64,000 nt of DNA from Natronomonas gomsonensis (lineage in GTDB: Archaea; Halobacteriota; Halobacteria; Halobacteriales; Haloarculaceae). The position numbers were made by a program, and so were the translations under genes. Location of the stretch: the NCBI RefSeq assembly GCF_024300825.1, contig NZ_CP101323.1, forward strand, positions 744,001 through 808,000, read 5' to 3'. The notes beneath the pieces are model-generated. The model was not told where the DNA came from. It saw nothing but the letters and a program-made list of their open reading frames with translations, and searched no databases. The stretch's first letter is position 1. The number at the start of each line of letters is the position of its first letter. This document shows positions 31,723-62,444 of this stretch, piece after piece.

Positions 31723-32949
31723 TTACACGAGAAGCGTGTTCAGGGCGTCCGGAACGACCAGCACGTCGCTTTCCGGTTCGATGGCCTCGTCGACGGAGTC
31801 GCAGGCGGACATCAGACACTCCTCGACGATGTCCGGTGATTCGCTGTTCGTGATGTACACGTCGTGGTCACGAAGCGCACGAGCGACGACGAAGGCCCGC
31901 TGGGCGCCGGCCTCGTACCCGCCCCGCATCGTCTCGTACAGTTCCTCGGCACTTTCGGCTCCCGAGAGCCACTCGTAGAAGCGTTGTTCGCCGCGCCCTT
32001 CGCCGGCACCCTCCTGAAGGAGGGCGGGGAGGACGACCCGCCCGTCGTCGCGGAGTGGGTTGTTCGCGCCCAACAGGATGTACGTCGCCGCCCGTGTCGT
32101 CTGATAGAGGTTGGCGTCCTTCGGCGCGCCGACGCCGCCGACGACGGCGTCGTACTCGCCGTCGACGCTCACCGATAGGGCCGTCTTTGCGCTGTCGGCC
32201 AGCGACCGCACGACGCGTTTCGGCTCGCCCGCCGCAACGTCGAGAATCCCCGGTGGGCCGTGGGTGACGTTGAGACAGAACTCGACGCCGCAGGCCTCAC
32301 CGGCGGCGTCGATGGCGTCTCTGAAGGGGTTGCCATCGATGCTTCCGAGGCGGACGCCGTCCTCGGAGAGCATATCGGGGCCGTGGGTGTAGCCGATGAG
32401 CGATTCGCCGCCGGCACCGATGGCGACCGTCTTCCCGCCGCCCGAGAAGCCGGCGTACTGGTGGGGTTCGACCATCCCCGTCGCGAGCACGCGGTCGGCG
32501 CGGGCGACGGTGCGGTTGAGTTCGACGGGCGTTCCGTCGACCGACCCCACCTCGACGGTATCGTCTGGGTCGTGGTTGACCGCGAGGTCGGCGTGCTCAC
32601 CGAGCATCTCCGTGAGTTCGTCGTCGGTCATCGGCCGGTGGAGGCCCAATCCGACGACGACGGTCACCTGCTCGCGGTAGACGCCGGCGCGTTCGAGTTC
32701 CGACAGCAGGATGTCGACGAGGACGCCGTCTGGGGTCGCACGGGTGATGTCGGTGACGACGACGGCGACGGTGTCGTCGGGGTCGACGAGCGTCGTAAGG
32801 TCGGGGCCGAGGGGGTCGGCGAGCGCCGCCTCCGCGGCCAGTCGGACCTCGACCGCCTTTCCACCGGCCGGTTCGGCGACGGTCACCGAACACTCCGGAA
32901 AGTCGACCGACACGGTTCCGTCGCCGAACGAGAGTTCGACGGCCGACAT
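31723..32949 (-). CDS. LarA-family nickel-pincer racemase homologue
   Basis: A 408-aa protein of the LarA (DUF2088) family, whose founding member racemises lactate using a nickel-pincer (NPN) cofactor covalently held on a lysine. By family spacing the key residues are present: D67/R70 (DITR), H104 (GLHRP), H163 (PHQ), K173 (GFSGGGKT, the cofactor lysine) and H189 (GYTHGP). The QxxK motif of lactate racemase appears as YQTTRA, with Arg for Lys, hinting at another 2-hydroxyacid substrate. The cofactor-synthesis genes larB, larC and larE are not in the window. Its ATG overlaps the rtcB stop (TGATG), so it is translationally coupled to rtcB. Confidence 0.85.
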   Translation of the reverse strand: MSAVELSFGDGTVSVDFPECSVTVAEPAGGKAVEVRLAAEAALADPLGPDLTTLVDPDDTVAVVVTDITRATPDGVLVDILLSELERAGVYREQVTVVVGLGLHRPMTDDELTEMLGEHADLAVNHDPDDTVEVGSVDGTPVELNRTVARADRVLATGMVEPHQYAGFSGGGKTVAIGAGGESLIGYTHGPDMLSEDGVRLGSIDGNPFRDAIDAAGEACGVEFCLNVTHGPPGILDVAAGEPKRVVRSLADSAKTALSVSVDGEYDAVVGGVGAPKDANLYQTTRAATYILLGANNPLRDDGRVVLPALLQEGAGEGRGEQRFYEWLSGAESAEELYETMRGGYEAGAQRAFVVARALRDHDVYITNSESPDIVEECLMSACDSVDEAIEPESDVLVVPDALNTLLV

Positions 32950-34406
32950 CAGCCCTTGATGTTGCAGACCGGGTAGACGCGGGCGACCTTGTCACCGATG
33001 CCGAGTTCGTCGCTGACGCGAACCACCTCGTCTACGTCCTTGTACACGCCCGGTGCCTCCTCGGCGATTGTCGCGCCGCTCTGGGCTTTAACGTACACTT
33101 GCTGGTCGCGGAGGTCGTCCTGTACGTCGCCGCCCCAGAACTCGCTTTTCGCCTGCGTCCGACTCATCAGGCGACCGGCGCCGTGGGCCGTCGAGCCGAA
33201 GGAGAGACCCATCGACTCCGACCCGCCACAGAGGACGTACGACCCAGCACCCATGCTGCCGGGAATGATGACCGGCTGTCCCACGTCGCGGTAGGCCTTC
33301 GGCACCTCGCTCCGGCCCGCCGGGAACGCCCGGGTTGCGCCCTTGCGGTGGACGAACAACTCACGGTCCTCGCCCTCGATTTCGTGGACTTCCTTCTTGG
33401 CGATGTTGTGGGAAACGTCGTACAGCAACTCCATATCCAACTCCTCCCACGGGCGGCCGAACACGTCGGCAAACACCTCCCGGGTCTGGTGGGTGATGAG
33501 TTGGCGGTTCACCCACGCGAAGTTGATGGCCGCACACATCGCGTCGTAGTAGTCCTCTGCGAGTTGGGACCCGGCGGGTGCCGCCGCGAGTTCCTTGTCG
33601 GGCAACTGTGACAGCAGGCCGCTGTGGGCCTGTTCGATGTCTCGGAGGTAGTCGTTGCATACCTGATGGCCTAGCCCCCGGGAACCACAGTGAATGAGGA
33701 CGACGATTTGGTCCTCTTCGAGCCCGTAGGCGTCGGCTATCTCCTCGTCGAAGATGTCGGTGACGCGCTGGACTTCGAGGAAGTGATTCCCCGACCCCAG
33801 CGAGCCGAGTTGGTTGCGCCCGCGGTCCTTGGCTTTCTTCGAGACCGCGGCGGCGTCGGCATCGTGGCGGACGCCCTCGTCTTCGCAGTGGGCGAGGTCG
33901 TCGGCCGTGGCATACCCCTCCTCGTGGGCCCAGTCCATTCCGCGTTCGAGGACGGCTTCGACGGTGCCGGAATCGCCCTCGACGACGCCACCGCCGCCGA
34001 GTCCGGAGGGAACCGCCTCGAACAGCGCGTCGACGAGTTCCTCCTCGTTGCCTTCGAGGTCGTCGTAGGTGAGGTTCGTCTTCACCATTCGGACGCCGCA
34101 GTTGATGTCGTAGCCGACCGCTCCGGGGGATATACAGCCGTCTTCGGCGTCGATGGCGGCGACCCCACCCACCGGGAAGCCGTACCCCTGGTGGCCGTCG
34201 GGCATACAGAGGGCGTACTTTTGGACGCCCGGGAGATGCGTCGTGTTCTTCAGTTGTTCGAGGGTCTTGTCCTCCGAAATCTCTTCGAGGAGTTCCTCGC
34301 TGGCCAGCACCCGCGCCGGAACGCGCATGCCGCCCTCGGGTGGAATCTCCCAGACGTAGTCGCGGACCTTGTGCAGCGTCACGTCGCCCGCGTCGAACGT
34401 GGTCAT
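32949..34406 (-). CDS. rtcB: RtcB tRNA-splicing/RNA-repair ligase
   Basis: A 485-aa GTP- and Mn2+-dependent RNA ligase that joins 2',3'-cyclic phosphate and 5'-OH ends of tRNA exons. Hallmarks: GYDINCGVRMV (metal Cys), CGSRGLGHQVCNDY, HNIAKKEVHEI, PGSMGAGSYVLCGG and the guanylated-His region HGAGRLMSRTQAK. Length and colinearity match intein-free RtcB. The start at 34406 (MTTFDAGDVTLHKVRDYVWE) is a standard archaeal RtcB start. Archease, the usual activator, is not nearby. It is co-transcribed with, and 1 nt overlapping, the LarA-like gene downstream. Confidence 0.96.
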   Translation of the reverse strand: MTTFDAGDVTLHKVRDYVWEIPPEGGMRVPARVLASEELLEEISEDKTLEQLKNTTHLPGVQKYALCMPDGHQGYGFPVGGVAAIDAEDGCISPGAVGYDINCGVRMVKTNLTYDDLEGNEEELVDALFEAVPSGLGGGGVVEGDSGTVEAVLERGMDWAHEEGYATADDLAHCEDEGVRHDADAAAVSKKAKDRGRNQLGSLGSGNHFLEVQRVTDIFDEEIADAYGLEEDQIVVLIHCGSRGLGHQVCNDYLRDIEQAHSGLLSQLPDKELAAAPAGSQLAEDYYDAMCAAINFAWVNRQLITHQTREVFADVFGRPWEELDMELLYDVSHNIAKKEVHEIEGEDRELFVHRKGATRAFPAGRSEVPKAYRDVGQPVIIPGSMGAGSYVLCGGSESMGLSFGSTAHGAGRLMSRTQAKSEFWGGDVQDDLRDQQVYVKAQSGATIAEEAPGVYKDVDEVVRVSDELGIGDKVARVYPVCNIKG

Positions 34407-34466: not shown

Positions 34467-35429
34467 TCAGTCGTCGGCAGGTGCCGGGTCGTCGGCGCCT
34501 TCGATTTTCACGAGTTCCTCGACGGGTGGCAATTCGGCGTCGGCGTCGGTGATGATTTCGATGCGCTTCGAGAGTTTCTCTTGGGCGTACTCGATGAGCG
34601 GTGCGGGGTCGGCGCCGGTGTCGAACTCCGTCTGGACGGTGCCGGCGACGAGCGGCAGGAGGTCCGTGAGAATCCCCTGGACGATGTCGGGGTCGACGCC
34701 CTCCTCGGCGATGAGGTGCTGAACCTTGTGCATCCCGAAGCCGACGTGGCGGCCCTCATCGGAACGGATGCGCGTGATGCCCTCGATGAGGCCGTCGAGG
34801 TAGATGTCTTCGGTGTCGGCCTCCTCGCCCCAGTCGTCTGGGCCGGCGTCGCTGAACGTCGCCTGGAAGCCGTAGTAGCCGGTCTGAGCCAGTACGGACT
34901 CGACGACGAGGTGGTAGTGACAGAACGCCTTCGCCCGGTTTTCGGGAGTATCCTCCTCCAGCAGTCGGTGCATCGCTTCCTCGGTACGGTCGAACAACTC
35001 GACGTACTCCTCGGGGAAGTACCGCTGGTCGGTTGGCGGGGTGACTTCCCACCCCTTGGCCTCGGCGACTGGGTCGATGACGGTCCGCCAGTAGCGGTCG
35101 AAGAACTGGGTGTGTTTGGCCTCCTCGTAAATCTGGCTGGAGACGAACATCTGGTCGTTGATGTCCGAAAGCGTGAGCATCAGCGGCGCGAGGTCCTCCG
35201 TGACCGCCTCCTCCCCGGCGCCGAACTTCGCGACGCTTGCGCGGAACGCCTCGAACTGCTCGAAGTCCATATCGGAGTCGACGAGTCGCCGCCGGTCCTG
35301 CTGGAGCAACTCTTCGGCGATGTCCTCGTAGGGGTCCCAGTGTCGGTAGACGGCGTTCCGGAAGTAGCCGCCGGCGAAGGAGTCGGGGTCGATACGCATC
35401 TCACGACCGGTGTCTCGTATCTGAGTCAT
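34467..35429 (-). CDS. R2-like ligand-binding oxidase (R2lox)
   Basis: A 320-aa ferritin-like di-metal protein, often labelled ribonucleotide reductase beta. Ligands by spacing: E73, E103 and H106 (EEAKH), E177, E225 and H228 (DEGRH). The residues expected for the R2lox Val-Tyr ether cross-link are in register: V76, three after the first Glu, and Y172, five before E177. Y185 is also in place. R2lox has a Mn/Fe cofactor and binds a fatty acid; its substrate is unknown. Haloarchaea typically make deoxynucleotides with a B12 reductase, so an RNR role is unlikely. It is divergent from trxB, and the ATG at 35429 was chosen. Confidence 0.85.
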   Translation of the reverse strand: MTQIRDTGREMRIDPDSFAGGYFRNAVYRHWDPYEDIAEELLQQDRRRLVDSDMDFEQFEAFRASVAKFGAGEEAVTEDLAPLMLTLSDINDQMFVSSQIYEEAKHTQFFDRYWRTVIDPVAEAKGWEVTPPTDQRYFPEEYVELFDRTEEAMHRLLEEDTPENRAKAFCHYHLVVESVLAQTGYYGFQATFSDAGPDDWGEEADTEDIYLDGLIEGITRIRSDEGRHVGFGMHKVQHLIAEEGVDPDIVQGILTDLLPLVAGTVQTEFDTGADPAPLIEYAQEKLSKRIEIITDADAELPPVEELVKIEGADDPAPADD

Positions 35430-35566
35430 ACCCCATGATAGATGCACACATACAAACCGCTTCCCCCTGCATACGACGCCAGTTTAACAAGCGGGCGACG
35501 GCGGGACGTGTGCGGTCGACACCCCACAGCACAACTTACATACCCCACGGAAGGCAACGTTCTGGC

Positions 35567-36604
35567 ATGACCGAGGACGCCGAACACCGTCGACTCGTCA
35601 TCGCTGGCTCCGGTATCGCAGGACTCACGGCGGCGATTTACGCCGCACGCTCGAACAACGACCCGCTCGTGTTGGAGGGGCCCGAACCCGGCGGTCAACT
35701 CACCCTGACGACCGACGTGGCGAACTACCCCGGCTTCCCCGACGGCATCGGCGGACCGGACCTCGTCAACAACATGAAAGAGCAGGCCGAGCAGTTCGGC
35801 ACCGAAATCGACCACGGCGTCATCGTCGACGTAGAGCCCGGCCAACCCCACCGCATCGAAATGCGCGACGGCACCGTCTACACCGCCGACGCCTTCATCG
35901 CCGCCTCGGGCGCCTCCGCGCGCACTCTCGGCGTCCCCGGCGAAGACGAGTTGATGGGCTACGGCGTCTCCACCTGTGCCACCTGCGATGGCGCGTTCTT
36001 CCGCGGCGAGGACATGCTCGTCGTCGGGGGCGGCGACGCCGCCTGCGAGGAGGCCGCCTTCCTCACGAAGTTCGCCGACACCGTCTACATCGCCCACCGC
36101 CGCGAGGAGTTCCGAGCGGAAGACTACTGGACCGATCGCATCCGCGAACTCGAAGACGAGGGTGCCGTCGAGGTGATGACCAACACCGAACTCCTCGAAA
36201 TCGAGGGCACCGCCGAGGAGGGCATCGAAAGCGTCCGCCTCGCGCGCAACCCCGAGGGGTACCCGAAGGAGAAACTCGACGACCCCGACACCGAGGAGTT
36301 CGACCTCCCCGTCGGCGCCGTGTTCATGGCCATCGGCCACACGCCGAACACCGACTACCTCGAAGACACCGGCGTCGAGATGGACGACACCGGCTACATC
36401 CAGACCGTCGGCGGTTCCGGCGGCGGGCAGACGAAGACGGACGTTTCCGGCATCTTCGGCGCCGGCGACGTGGTCGACTATCACTACCAGCAGGCCATCA
36501 CGGCCGGTGGGATGGGATGTAAGGCCGCCATCGACGCCGACGAGTATCTCGAAGAACTGGAGCGCGCCGAGAAGACGGCTGACGCCGCGGCGGCCGACGA
36601 CTGA
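35567..36604 (+). CDS. trxB: Thioredoxin-disulfide reductase
   Basis: A 345-aa FAD/NAD(P)H flavoprotein that passes electrons to thioredoxin. It has the N-terminal FAD motif VIAGSGIAGLTAAIYAARS, then GGQLTLTTDVANYPGFPDG and the redox-active disulfide C137-x-x-C140 (STCATCDGAFF). The second Rossmann motif VVGGGDAACEEA is followed by HRREEF, and the C-terminal FAD contact is FGAGDVVDY. The ATG at 35567 follows an AT-rich ACTTACAT about 32 nt upstream. The C-terminal ~20 residues are an acidic Ala/Asp tail. It shares a 137-nt divergent promoter region with the R2lox gene. Confidence 0.94.
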   Translation: MTEDAEHRRLVIAGSGIAGLTAAIYAARSNNDPLVLEGPEPGGQLTLTTDVANYPGFPDGIGGPDLVNNMKEQAEQFGTEIDHGVIVDVEPGQPHRIEMRDGTVYTADAFIAASGASARTLGVPGEDELMGYGVSTCATCDGAFFRGEDMLVVGGGDAACEEAAFLTKFADTVYIAHRREEFRAEDYWTDRIRELEDEGAVEVMTNTELLEIEGTAEEGIESVRLARNPEGYPKEKLDDPDTEEFDLPVGAVFMAIGHTPNTDYLEDTGVEMDDTGYIQTVGGSGGGQTKTDVSGIFGAGDVVDYHYQQAITAGGMGCKAAIDADEYLEELERAEKTADAAAADD

Positions 36605-36673: not shown

Positions 36674-36958
36674 ATGGCAGACGAAACCGTTACCCTACAC
36701 ATCGACGGCCCCGACGGCGACGACGAAGTGACCCTTCCCACCGAGATGCTGGATTTGATGCGCGAAAACGACGAGTCCAACGCCGAAATCGTCGGCGACC
36801 TCGCGCTGTTCTCCTGTGCCCAGCGCATCCACGCGACCGTCCACCACGCCGAGGGCGGCGACACCGAGGAGTACGAGGCCATCGAGGAACAGACGATGGA
36901 CCTGTTCGAGGACCGCTTCGGCGCCTCCTACGCCGAGTTGACCGGCCACCAGCACTAA
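36674..36958 (+). CDS. Small acidic conserved hypothetical protein
   Basis: A 94-aa acidic protein, unrecognised. It starts MADETVTLHIDGPDGDDEV (a beta-strand-like ubiquitin/S4-sized segment), followed by helical sequence with a single Cys (FSCAQRIHATVHHAEGG) and a His-rich C-terminus ending in HQH. The ATG at 36674 is preferred over an in-frame codon eight residues upstream. It is co-oriented with trxB, 69 nt after it. Function is unknown. Confidence 0.65.
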   Translation: MADETVTLHIDGPDGDDEVTLPTEMLDLMRENDESNAEIVGDLALFSCAQRIHATVHHAEGGDTEEYEAIEEQTMDLFEDRFGASYAELTGHQH

Positions 36959-59022: not shown

Positions 59023-59193
59023 TCAGCCGAACGCCTCGAAGGGTTCCCCACAGTCCCGACAGTAGTGCATCGACCGACACAGCGACGGCCCCTTCGGGTG
59101 TTCTCGGTCGGTGTTCTCCGACCCGCAGTAGGGGCAAGTCGCCGCCTCGCCGCCGGCATCGGTGTCCGTCGAGGGGTCCGGTCGCCGTCTCAT
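59023..59193 (-). CDS. Zinc-ribbon half of split PaaD
   Basis: A 56-aa protein, MRRRPDPSTDTDAGGEAATC followed by a four-cysteine ribbon: CPYCGSENT, then CRSMHYCRDCGEPF (the second pair is C-x2-C, with one extra Cys before). It matches the C-terminal zinc domain of bacterial PaaD, which there follows the DUF59 domain in one chain. Here its ATG overlaps the paaD stop (ATGA), so it is translated right after it. It is the last gene of the paa operon and too short to be called by many gene finders. Confidence 0.8.
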   Translation of the reverse strand: MRRRPDPSTDTDAGGEAATCPYCGSENTDREHPKGPSLCRSMHYCRDCGEPFEAFG

Positions 59194-59630
59194 ACCGACA
59201 CCCCGAACTCACGGAGGTCGGCTTTGCCGTCGTCGGTGACCATCTCGACGTTCCACTCGGGGCTCCAGACCAACTCGACGGTGGCCGTCTCGACGCCCTC
59301 CGCGGCCGCGGCCGCCCGCCGTACGTCCTCTTGAAGGTAATCACGCGCCGGACAGCCGGTGTATGTGAGCGTCATCGTCACCGTCGCGTGGCCCCCCTCG
59401 ACGGTCAGGCCGTAGATGAGTCCCAAATCGACCACCGAGATCGGCATTTCGGGGTCTTCGACCTCGTGGAGTCGCCTCCAGACCGCCGCCTCGACGCCGG
59501 TGGCCCCCTCGCCGGTCGCCGGCAACCCGTCCGCGGCGTCGCCGGCCTCGTAGTCGGTGTACGCACAGTACTCCGGGCCGCCCTCGAAGAGGTCCGGGTC
59601 CGGTTGCTCGGGCGGCTCAGACATCGACAT
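59190..59630 (-). CDS. paaD: PaaD, DUF59 domain part
   Basis: A 146-aa DUF59 (MIP18-like) protein of the phenylacetyl-CoA epoxidase operon, probably needed for iron(-sulfur) assembly of the complex. It has VDLGLIYGLTVEGGHATVTM and the conserved Cys in TYTGCPARDYLQEDV, then ATVELVWSPEWNVEMVTDDG. The zinc ribbon that normally ends PaaD is missing and is encoded by the overlapping downstream ORF. ATGs at 59630 and 59624 are both possible starts; the former overlaps the paaC stop by 14 nt. Confidence 0.9.
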   Translation of the reverse strand: MSMSEPPEQPDPDLFEGGPEYCAYTDYEAGDAADGLPATGEGATGVEAAVWRRLHEVEDPEMPISVVDLGLIYGLTVEGGHATVTMTLTYTGCPARDYLQEDVRRAAAAAEGVETATVELVWSPEWNVEMVTDDGKADLREFGVSV

Positions 59631-60450
59631 CGGCCTCCTCGGGGGCAGGCATCAGCGACGGCGCCTCGCTCCGCCCCAGTTGTCGGTAGGTGAACGTGAA
59701 CTCGTCGTACAGCGACCGCCAGGCCTCGGTGTGGATGCCGTTTCGGCCGCGAGCCTCGGGAAGCAGTTCCTCGGCTGACTCGACCGGTACCTCGACACCG
59801 AGACCAGCGAGGAACCCGGAGACGATATCACGCCACTCCACTCGGAGGTCCGCGATTGGTTCCGGTCGAACACCGGTGTCGACGATGGCCTCCTCGTGGT
59901 CGGTCCGCTCGAACAGCGTTAGCGCGTGAGGGAACAGTCGGTCGACGGCCCCCTGGACACGCTCGCGTCCCTCTCGACTCTCGGCCAACCGTTCAAGCCA
60001 GTTTTGGGCGTGCTCGCGGTGGTAGTGTTCCTCGCCGCGGACCTTCCCCACTCGGTCGGCGATGGGTACGTAGGCACTGTCTTCGAGCGCCTGCAGACGC
60101 AGGTGTTCGTGGGTGTCGTAGAGGTAGCCGCGGACGACGCAGTCGGCCCAGTCACCGTCCTCGAACGGCAACTCGACGAGCGTCGTGTGACGAAAGTCGT
60201 CGGGGTCGCGCTCCCAGATGAGGTCGACCTGGTCGTAGCCGAACGCCTCCAGTAGGTCGTACCACAGGCGGGCGTGCCCCAACTCGTCTTGGGCGATGTT
60301 CGCGATGGCGATATCGGCCTCCAGCGTCGGCCCGCGAACCTGCCACTCGGTGTAGCGTTCGGCGACGACGAACTCGTCGTCGGCCAGCGTCCGGAGTTCC
60401 GCCTCGACGGCCGCCCGCTCGCGGTCGCTCAGTTCCTCGGTCGCGACCAT
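59617..60450 (-). CDS. paaC: PaaC, structural subunit of phenylacetyl-CoA epoxidase
   Basis: A 277-aa ferritin-like protein that pairs with PaaA in the multicomponent monooxygenase converting phenylacetyl-CoA to its ring-1,2-epoxide. It shows FVVAERYTEWQVRGPTLEAD and IANIAQDELGHARLWYDLLE. In characterised systems PaaC is the non-catalytic partner. The start at 60450 overlaps the paaB stop by 1 nt (TGATG). It is part of the paaA-B-C-D unit. Confidence 0.93.
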   Translation of the reverse strand: MVATEELSDRERAAVEAELRTLADDEFVVAERYTEWQVRGPTLEADIAIANIAQDELGHARLWYDLLEAFGYDQVDLIWERDPDDFRHTTLVELPFEDGDWADCVVRGYLYDTHEHLRLQALEDSAYVPIADRVGKVRGEEHYHREHAQNWLERLAESREGRERVQGAVDRLFPHALTLFERTDHEEAIVDTGVRPEPIADLRVEWRDIVSGFLAGLGVEVPVESAEELLPEARGRNGIHTEAWRSLYDEFTFTYRQLGRSEAPSLMPAPEEADVDV

Positions 60451-60779
60451 CAGTTATCCGCCTCCGCGAGGTCGCGTTCGGCTTCCTCCTGTTCGCGTTG
60501 GCTGGCCTCGATTTCCTCGGCGAACGTCTCGTCGGTGTTGTAGTTCGTCGCCCAGCGGTACTGCTTTTGGGTGGTGCCGCCCATCTCGGTTCCAGGGTCG
60601 TCGGCGTGAACCGTCTCGATTTTCTCTTTCGGGACGACCCACAGGCTGTTGGCCGGCTTCCGGCGGGCGTGCATAATCTGGGCGTACTGTTTCGCCAACT
60701 CGGCGTCCGGCGCGTGGACGTTGCCGACGTGGGTGTGGTAGTCCTTCTCTTTTTCCTGTCTGAACACTTCCCAAATCAT
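60450..60779 (-). CDS. paaB: PaaB, small subunit of phenylacetyl-CoA epoxidase
   Basis: A 109-aa PaaB. The family-typical start MIWEVFRQEKEKDYHTHVGN and NVHAPDAELAKQYAQIMHAR are visible, then SLWVVPKEKI and QKQYRWATNYNTDETF. It bridges the PaaA/PaaC core. The ATG at 60779 (not the TTG two codons upstream) is used and lies 3 nt after the paaA stop. Confidence 0.93.
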   Translation of the reverse strand: MIWEVFRQEKEKDYHTHVGNVHAPDAELAKQYAQIMHARRKPANSLWVVPKEKIETVHADDPGTEMGGTTQKQYRWATNYNTDETFAEEIEASQREQEEAERDLAEADN

Positions 60780-60781
60780 GG

Positions 60782-61723
60782 TCAATCGTCCGCTGTCGCA
60801 GGGGTTACCCCGCCCTGCTCGGGGGATTCGATGGCCTCACGAACCCACTCGACGGCCGCCTGCGTGCGTTCGCGTTTTTCGATTTGACCGACGCCGGTTG
60901 GGTGCTCGTTTTTCGCGACGGTGAAGAACTCCTCCCAGTCGAGGTCCTCCTCGTAGACCTCGTAGTAGTCGTCGGACTCGTGGTACTCGACGCGGGGGTA
61001 CTCCGGCAGTTCGAGGCCGTACTTCTCCGCCTTCGGGACGTAGGCGTTGAGGAAGGCGTTCCGGAGGTCGTCGTTGCTCATCGTCTTCAGGCCGACCTCC
61101 ATCGCGAACTCGCCGTGGGTCGATTGGTCGTCTGTCGGCCCGAAGAACTGCAGGATGCGCGGCCACCACTTCTCGAAGGCCGCCTGCAGACGCTCGCGGT
61201 CGCGTTTCGACCCCGTAGCGATGGTCCGCAGGATGTCCTCGCCGTGTTTGATGTGGAACCCCTCCTCGAAGCAAATCTTGTCGATGGCGTGGGCGTACGG
61301 TTCCCACGAGGTGCGCTTCAGCGTCGCCTGCCGGCGCATCGCCGCGCCGTCGACGAAGAACATTATCATCGGCAGTTCGTACCAGTCGTCCAACGGGTAG
61401 TGAAAGCAGTTGAGGAACTTCCCCTCGCCCGCTTCGAGTTCTTCCAGCATCTCCTCGCGCGTTTTGATGCCCAACTCCTCGGCGGCCCGGTACAGCAGTT
61501 GGCCGTGGCCGACCTCGTCTTGGACCTGCGCCGAGATGGCGAGTTTTCTGTCGAGACTCGGCGCCTGCCGGATGAACGGACGCTCGATGTAGGCGCCCAT
61601 GATTTCGCTGTTGGCGTGGAACTGAATCATCCGCGTGGCGGCTTCCCGATACTCCCGTGGCATGTCGTCGCCGGGGCCGAACTCCCGCGGCCCGGCGCGC
61701 CGTTTCACTGTGTCGATGTCCAT
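60782..61723 (-). CDS. paaA: PaaA, catalytic subunit of phenylacetyl-CoA epoxidase
   Basis: A 313-aa diiron oxygenase subunit performing the epoxidation of phenylacetyl-CoA. Carboxylate/His ligand motifs are QVQDEVGHGQLLYRAAEELG and ICFEEGFHIKHGED, with conserved ATRMIQFHANSEIMGAYIER upstream. It is the first gene of the operon. The ATG at 61723 is preferred to an upstream in-frame ATG at 61753 because a TATA-like GTTAATTC lies 27 nt before it, giving a leaderless mRNA. Confidence 0.94.
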   Translation of the reverse strand: MDIDTVKRRAGPREFGPGDDMPREYREAATRMIQFHANSEIMGAYIERPFIRQAPSLDRKLAISAQVQDEVGHGQLLYRAAEELGIKTREEMLEELEAGEGKFLNCFHYPLDDWYELPMIMFFVDGAAMRRQATLKRTSWEPYAHAIDKICFEEGFHIKHGEDILRTIATGSKRDRERLQAAFEKWWPRILQFFGPTDDQSTHGEFAMEVGLKTMSNDDLRNAFLNAYVPKAEKYGLELPEYPRVEYHESDDYYEVYEEDLDWEEFFTVAKNEHPTGVGQIEKRERTQAAVEWVREAIESPEQGGVTPATADD

Positions 61724-61743
61724 CCCACGCGAACTATTATCAT

Positions 61744-61753
61744 GAATTAACAT
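61744..61753 (-). promoter_or_regulatory. TATA-like box of the paa operon
   Basis: On the minus strand this reads ATGTTAATTC, centred about 25-27 nt before the paaA ATG at 61723. It directly abuts the inverted repeat at 61761-61780. Confidence 0.5.
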
Positions 61754-61786: not shown

Positions 61787-61808
61787 GTGAATCGTGCGAA
61801 CAAGCCCC

Positions 61809-62444
61809 ATGATTTCGGAGTGTCTCGTCGTCGAGTTCCGGGTTACCGGCGACGACTGCCCGCTTGCGGCGGCATCTCGGAGCGCCGAGGGACCCATCGA
61901 GGCCGCACCACCGCTCCGACGGGGAGACGGCAACACGCTGTTGCGGTTTTCGGCCGTCGACGCCGCCGTCGGTGACTCCCTCGATGCCGACGACCGCATC
62001 CGATATCTCCATCGGACGAGCGTCGACGGCCGCCACACCTTTCGCTGTCTCTCGAAGGACCGCTGTGTCATCCACGAACTCATCGACGAGGGGTTTCTCG
62101 TCGATTCGGTTCAGTACCGCGACGGCGTCGAGCGACACGTCGGCGCGGTCGTCGGCCAAGAGGTACTTCACGGCGTCCTCGAGGCGGCGGGAGAGGCCGT
62201 CGGCGTGAAACTCGAACGAATCTCGCCGCTGGGCGACGACGGCGAGACCGCCGTCGAGACGCGCTGGAATCTGACACCGGGACAGGCCCTCGCGTTGGAA
62301 ACTGCCTACGAGATGGGCTACTTCGAGGTCCCGAAAGACGTGACCTCCGCGGAGGTCGCGGCGGAACTCGGCGTTTCGAAATCCGCGTTTCTGGAGCGGC
62401 TGCGGCGGGGACAGGCAAGGCTCCTTGGGGCCGTATTCTCCTAA
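61809..62444 (+). CDS. HTH_10 (Bat-like) transcriptional regulator, divergent from paa
   Basis: A 211-aa regulator with an N-terminal sensor-like domain (~1-150) and a C-terminal HTH_10 domain: LTPGQALALETAYEMGYFEV, then PKDVTSAEVAAELGVSKSAF and LERLRRGQARLLGAVF. HTH_10 proteins of haloarchaea (bacterio-opsin activator type) control aromatic and other catabolic genes. Because it is divergent from paaA across an 85-bp spacer with an inverted repeat, it is the likely paa regulator. The ATG at 61809 (MISECLVVEFRV) is standard. Confidence 0.87.
   Translation: MISECLVVEFRVTGDDCPLAAASRSAEGPIEAAPPLRRGDGNTLLRFSAVDAAVGDSLDADDRIRYLHRTSVDGRHTFRCLSKDRCVIHELIDEGFLVDSVQYRDGVERHVGAVVGQEVLHGVLEAAGEAVGVKLERISPLGDDGETAVETRWNLTPGQALALETAYEMGYFEVPKDVTSAEVAAELGVSKSAFLERLRRGQARLLGAVFS

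Follow-up and report, generated by a model that had tools for sequence, protein, structure and literature searches.

Which kind of enzyme is encoded at positions 34467 to 35429 of the 64,000-nucleotide stretch of Natronomonas gomsonensis DNA analyzed here (the window), and what might it do for the cell? The original prediction placed a gene for R2lox at these coordinates. They hold one open reading frame, to which we add the strand: the coding sequence lies on the minus strand (34467..35429, stop codon included), begins with the ATG at 35429, ends with the stop codon at 34467, and encodes 320 amino acids.

Metal ligands and cross-link residues are in the register of a structurally studied R2lox

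The window protein has a dinuclear metal site made up of six Glu and His residues, the first of which is Glu. To compare this site with that of a known R2lox, we used the phmmer alignment to PDB 4hr0, in which the chain numbering minus an offset of 14 residues gives the numbering of GkR2loxI from Geobacillus kaustophilus. In this alignment, the metal ligands are E73 (codon 35211..35213; GkR2lox E69), E103 (35121..35123; E102), H106 (35112..35114; H105), E177 (34899..34901; E167), E225 (34755..34757; E202), and H228 (34746..34748; H205), all on the minus strand, as are the codons that follow. The valine and tyrosine of the cross-link correspond to V76 (35202..35204; V72) and Y172 (34914..34916; Y162), and A181 (34887..34889) matches A171, an alanine of the GkR2lox ligand tunnel whose role is described in the available text of PMC6399176. 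The other eight GkR2loxI residues (E69, V72, E102, H105, Y162, E167, E202, and H205) are named in the accessible portion of PMC10867098. The ligands and the Val-Tyr pair are thus where the original prediction had put them, at the spacing of GkR2lox.

E73, V76, E103, H106, Y172, E177, E225, and H228 are invariant in 67/67 haloarchaeal homologues, the five paralogues of this genome included, and A181 is likewise present in all 67 aligned rows, which are not independent and include near-identical sequences. This invariance, together with E values of 1e-34 (NCBIfam) and 6.4e-21 (PDB chain), means that the register of the site is not due to chance.

The protein belongs to a divergent haloarchaeal branch of R2lox

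Profile searches against NCBIfam returned R2lox models exclusively, with NF006200 as the best (E = 1e-34), and phmmer retrieved PDB 4hr0 (6.4e-21) followed by further R2lox chains. None of the five NCBIfam R2lox models, NF006198 to NF006202, reached its curated cut-off (best score, 120.3 versus 194 bits), and the NF006200 cut-off was passed in 0 of 37 genomes of the same taxonomic family. Because the scores lie below all five cut-offs, we place the protein in a divergent haloarchaeal branch outside the curated subfamilies. Its closest homologues are proteins of N. gomsonensis (98% identical) and Natronomonas sp. CBA1123 (97%).

Six residues (G, P, K, A, Y, and R) are listed as unique to R2lox in the available part of PMC3824934. 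The window protein carries all six, as G72, P82, K105, A181, Y185, and R227, and so do 26/26 other archaeal R2lox rows compared; the five bacterial rows keep them with one exception, an Ala for Gly in a Geobacillus plasmid copy. Haloarchaeal R2 proteins (loci L087-L100) have the fold superfamily and the metal ligands in common with the window protein, but the six rows compared differ from it at all six unique positions, K105, R227, and P82 among them, and carry T, F, and F in place of V76, Y172, and A181. A tree separated 32 R2lox rows from 6 R2 rows with support of 100/100; for the tree and the residue comparison we took 6 of the 14 R2 loci and 23 of the 67 family rows. Two long branches within R2lox, the Geobacillus plasmid row and a haloarchaeal sequence, L081 (genome G199), are of unsure placement. 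L081 and a gene at G183:C2:158083-158862 belong to an R2lox-like group of haloarchaea that is much more distant (approximately 30 to 35% identity), in which L081 retains the same eight site residues.

We regard it as nearly certain that the window gene encodes a haloarchaeal R2lox. The type of enzyme is known, this member of it is divergent, and its active site is ordinary.

Residues and genome content argue against a ribonucleotide reductase

Reductase R2 proteins share the fold superfamily of the window protein, which also gives a weak match to PF00268, the reductase small chain (19.9 bits; cut-off, 33.6), and homologues on haloarchaeal plasmids are annotated in public records as ribonucleotide reductase subunits. 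The protein sequence by itself nearly refutes a class I small subunit (R2a, R2b, or R2c). F110 stands at the place of the radical Tyr of class Ia/Ib R2, as judged by the spacing from H106; A181 replaces the radical-pocket Phe (ScY2 243) of all R2, class Ic included; and the C-terminal Tyr is absent, the final 22 residues containing none. The full set of R2lox-unique residues and a position on the non-R2 side of the tree also weigh against this reading.

We found no class I partner in the genome. No PF00268 match exceeds the cut-off there, and R2lox paralogues account for both weak matches. PF02867, the large chain, has a single match, which passes the cut-off for the B12 (adenosylcobalamin)-dependent NrdJ (722.7 versus 399.95 bits). 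With no R2 over the cut-off and a large chain of class II, our searches thus detected no class I system in the genome. On the combined grounds of residues, tree, and genome content we reject the reductase subunit, which we consider extremely improbable. Mislabeling of R2lox as ribonucleotide reductase subunits occurs in plasmid records such as NZ_CP119994.1 and NC_013747.1.

The predicted fold is nearest to R2lox crystal structures

We modeled the protein with AlphaFold2, using 57 of the 67 rows as the input alignment (six near-copies and the four other paralogues of the genome were left out). The model has a mean pLDDT of 87.1 and a pTM of 0.87. The metal ligands fall on predicted helices 56-86, 90-124, 162-192, and 212-243; pLDDT averages 93 to 97 in the 10-residue blocks that contain them. 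As in GkR2lox, V76 lies one helical turn from E73 on the same predicted helix, and Y172 precedes E177 by five residues.

Among the matches listed by VIA-align, every R2lox crystal entry (Z 33.1 to 29.2) ranks above the best RNR R2 (Z 27.3); the 50 best rows consist of R2lox and reductase entries, so that this ranking says nothing against other families. Foldseek agrees, with R2lox entries at ranks 1 to 34. Structure prediction had been named as a check on the original prediction, and the fold is indeed nearest to R2lox and not to RNR R2. At the level of alignment and model, the protein is a predicted ferritin-like helical bundle with six Glu/His ligands, the tunnel residue A181, and the Val-Tyr pair. 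Together, residues, tree, fold, and genome content support the view that this is an R2lox and not a nucleotide reductase.

The best structural matches listed are the actinobacterial R2lox proteins of Mycobacterium tuberculosis (PDB 3ee4 and 4ac8; Z 33.1 for 4ac8) and Saccharopolyspora erythraea (7qbp; Z 32.8), which are 23 to 28% identical to the window protein. GkR2loxI (PDB 4hr0 and variants) shares its ligands, Val-Tyr pair, tunnel Ala, and six R2lox-only residues, and its fold (Z 31.3; root mean square deviation of 2.3 over 268 residues), but is only about 28% identical over aligned residues and has different genomic neighbors. Relative to GkR2loxI, the window protein has a 13-residue insert at approximately 199-211, where pLDDT is low. 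The archaeal R2lox proteins of Sulfolobus acidocaldarius, SaR2loxI (6qrz) and SaR2loxII (7qbk), have the same fold (Z 30.0 and 31.7, respectively) but are 25 to 31% identical, and their host is not a haloarchaeon. Natronomonas pharaonis belongs to the same genus as the nearest homologues, and an N. pharaonis protein already lies within the R2lox clade in the available text of PMC3824934.

The divergent thioredoxin reductase is probably an incidental neighbor

As originally described, the R2lox gene is divergent from a thioredoxin reductase gene, the frame of which starts at 35567 on the plus strand (35567..36604) and encodes a CATC motif. The two starts are separated by an intergenic region of 137 bp (35430..35566). 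This arrangement raises the question of whether the reductase could be the dedicated electron donor of the window R2lox. The two genes are divergent in 4/4 orthologous Natronomonas loci, including where the downstream genes are not the same, and Rhodococcus R2lox clusters encode an oxidoreductase of thioredoxin reductase fold along with a ferredoxin. However, the two Rhodococcus R2lox-linked oxidoreductases lack any CxxC, in contrast to the CATC of the window enzyme, and the reductase gene, housekeeping in the genus, is present in 20/21 genomes searched. Among 12 reductase loci of the genus, 3 have an R2lox adjacent and 8 do not, while one (L129) ends too close to the gene to judge; R2lox is thus missing beside the reductase in 8/11 loci with enough upstream sequence. 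Given how widespread the reductase is and how often it occurs without R2lox, the linkage says little about function. A functional partnership is weakened by these R2lox-free loci and by the CxxC contrast with Rhodococcus; we consider the pairing probably incidental and a dedicated donor role very unlikely. A gene for a DUF7545 protein (36674-36958, plus strand) stays near the thioredoxin reductase across the genus.

Downstream of R2lox and on the same strand are genes for an RtcB RNA ligase (32949..34406, minus strand) and, further on, a LarA-like lactate racemase family protein (31723..32949, minus strand). The shared strand and the distance of 60 bp to RtcB led us to consider both as operon partners; RtcB is not kept there in genome G288, and we rejected them.

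Haloarchaeal R2lox genes are expanded and often adjoin HTH_10 regulators

The genome encodes five R2lox family members (53 to 100% identity). Across the class, 94/292 genomes have a match at an E value of 1e-10 or below, and 41 of these 94 have two or more, a count that split genes can inflate, as in genome G252. Two R2lox copies of identical protein sequence (L009 and L014) reside on a single 130-kb plasmid of Halomarina halobia, NZ_CP119994.1.

At 25/67 loci, a gene next to R2lox belongs to a single cluster of HTH_10 regulators and is in most cases divergent; Pfam assigns HVO_0513_N and HTH_10 to a cluster member. The cluster accounts for 25/133 adjacent genes versus 0/564 genes further away (Fisher p of approximately 1e-19), a p value that is too small, as the loci are related, with 11 of the 25 in Halorientalis, and the profile was itself built from this cluster. 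For an independent background, 13 genes match PF24278 in the 3.65-Mb genome, and 2 of these lie beside R2lox paralogues. The regulator beside paralogue L004 belongs to the HTH_10 cluster; it was missed by our gene calling, which is rough and also took some antisense frames. A homologue on a Haloterrigena turkmenica plasmid has a divergent helix-turn-helix gene with a weak score against the regulator profile. Approximately 5 kb from L004 is a cytochrome P450 gene (L070:1334-2659, minus strand), whose best NCBIfam match, albaflavenone monooxygenase/terpene synthase, is below the cut-off.

Neither an HTH_10 regulator nor a catabolic gene adjoins the window R2lox. The one HTH_10-family match in the window (61794-62444) is situated by Paa genes, 26 kb from R2lox, and we rejected it as a regulator of this gene. 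With these Paa genes, a PaaA, PaaB, PaaC, and PaaD phenylacetyl-CoA epoxidase set (59190-61753, minus strand) beside the HTH_10-type gene on the plus strand, the window contains a second ferritin-like oxygenase system.

Catabolic genes recur beside R2lox

Downstream of paralogue L002 are an isocitrate/methylisocitrate-lyase-like gene, which scores below the NCBIfam cut-offs, and a gene for the haloarchaeal malate synthase AceB (832 bits; cut-off, 780). Genes of the same lyase-like kind are adjacent to R2lox at 8/67 loci, acyl-CoA synthetase genes at 5/67, and enoyl-CoA hydratase genes at 3/67. On a Halomarina plasmid, R2lox is found amid AMP-binding, MaoC, enoyl-CoA hydratase, and thiolase genes. 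In bacteria, two Rhodococcus plasmids carry R2lox with an alcohol dehydrogenase, the thioredoxin-reductase-fold oxidoreductase, the ferredoxin, and an aldehyde dehydrogenase, one of the two stretches with a fatty acid-CoA ligase nearby as well, and a Mycobacterium plasmid carries R2lox with a fatty acid-CoA ligase and an alcohol dehydrogenase. The Geobacillus plasmid copy instead has genes for a UbiD-type decarboxylase, an adenylate-forming enzyme, and xanthine dehydrogenase. Taken as a whole, the HTH_10, glyoxylate-shunt, beta-oxidation, and acyl-CoA synthetase neighbors suggest that long-chain aliphatic compounds are oxidized in an inducible manner.

Discussion

Our overall explanation is that this gene encodes a haloarchaeal R2lox that holds Mn/Fe, forms the cross-link, and hydroxylates an aliphatic compound, to which we assign a probability of roughly 0.6. 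By analogy with structurally studied relatives, Mn would occupy site 1 and Fe site 2, O2 would be reduced on cofactor assembly, and a two-electron oxidation would create the ether cross-link between V76 and Y172; the mechanism of assembly and cross-linking is taken from the accessible part of PMC6399176. Neighborhoods and literature suggest that the mature enzyme may then hydroxylate a long-chain aliphatic compound bound in the tunnel, consuming O2 and two electrons, with an alkane, a fatty acyl, or an isoprenoid chain as candidate substrates. The product would pass through alcohol and aldehyde oxidation to beta-oxidation and the glyoxylate shunt, and each of the five paralogues may have a different substrate or inducer.

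The original prediction held that the substrate of R2lox is unknown. This is partly dated, since PMC10867098 (2024), in its available text, reports loss of alkanes with GkR2loxI and claims hydroxylation of n-alkanes; it also stands in part, as the evidence is modest. The assay was performed in crude lysate, and an E202A/H205A double mutant of metal ligands lost activity only in part. Because this mutant kept much of its activity, we treat alkanes as a likely but unproven substrate. According to the same portion of that article, hexadecane induces a haloarchaeal R2lox (Kumar et al. 2020, as cited there), R2lox proteins lack aldehyde-deformylating activity, and octadecanoic acid is an unlikely substrate. 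In the genus, N. pharaonis grows on long-chain fatty acids and makes wax esters (PMC11948995, available text), which suggests that Natronomonas meets long-chain compounds.

Several observations count against an aliphatic role. Lipid-type neighbors occur at 8, 5, and 3 of the 67 loci, so that most loci lack them; the window copy has no catabolic neighbor; the Geobacillus plasmid neighbors differ; and we identified no reductase partner for the archaeal copies. R2lox might therefore act outside aliphatic catabolism, as a stoichiometric oxidant, in O2 or peroxide defense, in metal handling, or in the modification of a lipid such as a membrane isoprenoid. The upstream region that the window copy shares with thioredoxin reductase in the four orthologous loci would fit such a role, as would the many other R2lox loci that adjoin non-lipid genes, and earlier papers call the function of R2lox unidentified (PMC6399176, in the part available). 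That thioredoxin reductase pairing is, however, probably incidental, and catabolic neighbors recur in both haloarchaea and bacteria. A non-catabolic role therefore seems to us the less probable course, though a serious one, and we lean, by a modest degree, toward aliphatic hydroxylation as the role of haloarchaeal R2lox, on the strength of neighborhoods and literature.

New here are the five family members in one genome, the pairing with HTH_10, and the catabolic neighbors of haloarchaeal R2lox; our search, which most subscription papers lay outside, found no literature on R2lox paired with HTH_10 regulators. As a tentative generalization, which we think possible but do not favor, haloarchaeal R2lox proteins could be diversified inducible Mn/Fe hydroxylases. 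A cell would have as many as five, many of them controlled by a dedicated HTH_10 (HVO_0513-type) regulator, and each would make a different long-chain compound, aliphatic or isoprenoid, accessible to beta-oxidation and the glyoxylate shunt. If this were true, the diversified R2lox set would correspond, in archaea, to the alkane hydroxylases of the AlkB or P450 families. What R2lox does physiologically has long been a question, and five paralogues in one haloarchaeon give genetics a point of entry. Expansion in haloarchaea, together with the regulators and catabolic genes nearby, makes this role testable by genetics, and the paralogues linked to a regulator or to the glyoxylate shunt open an approach by induction and knockout on defined carbon sources.
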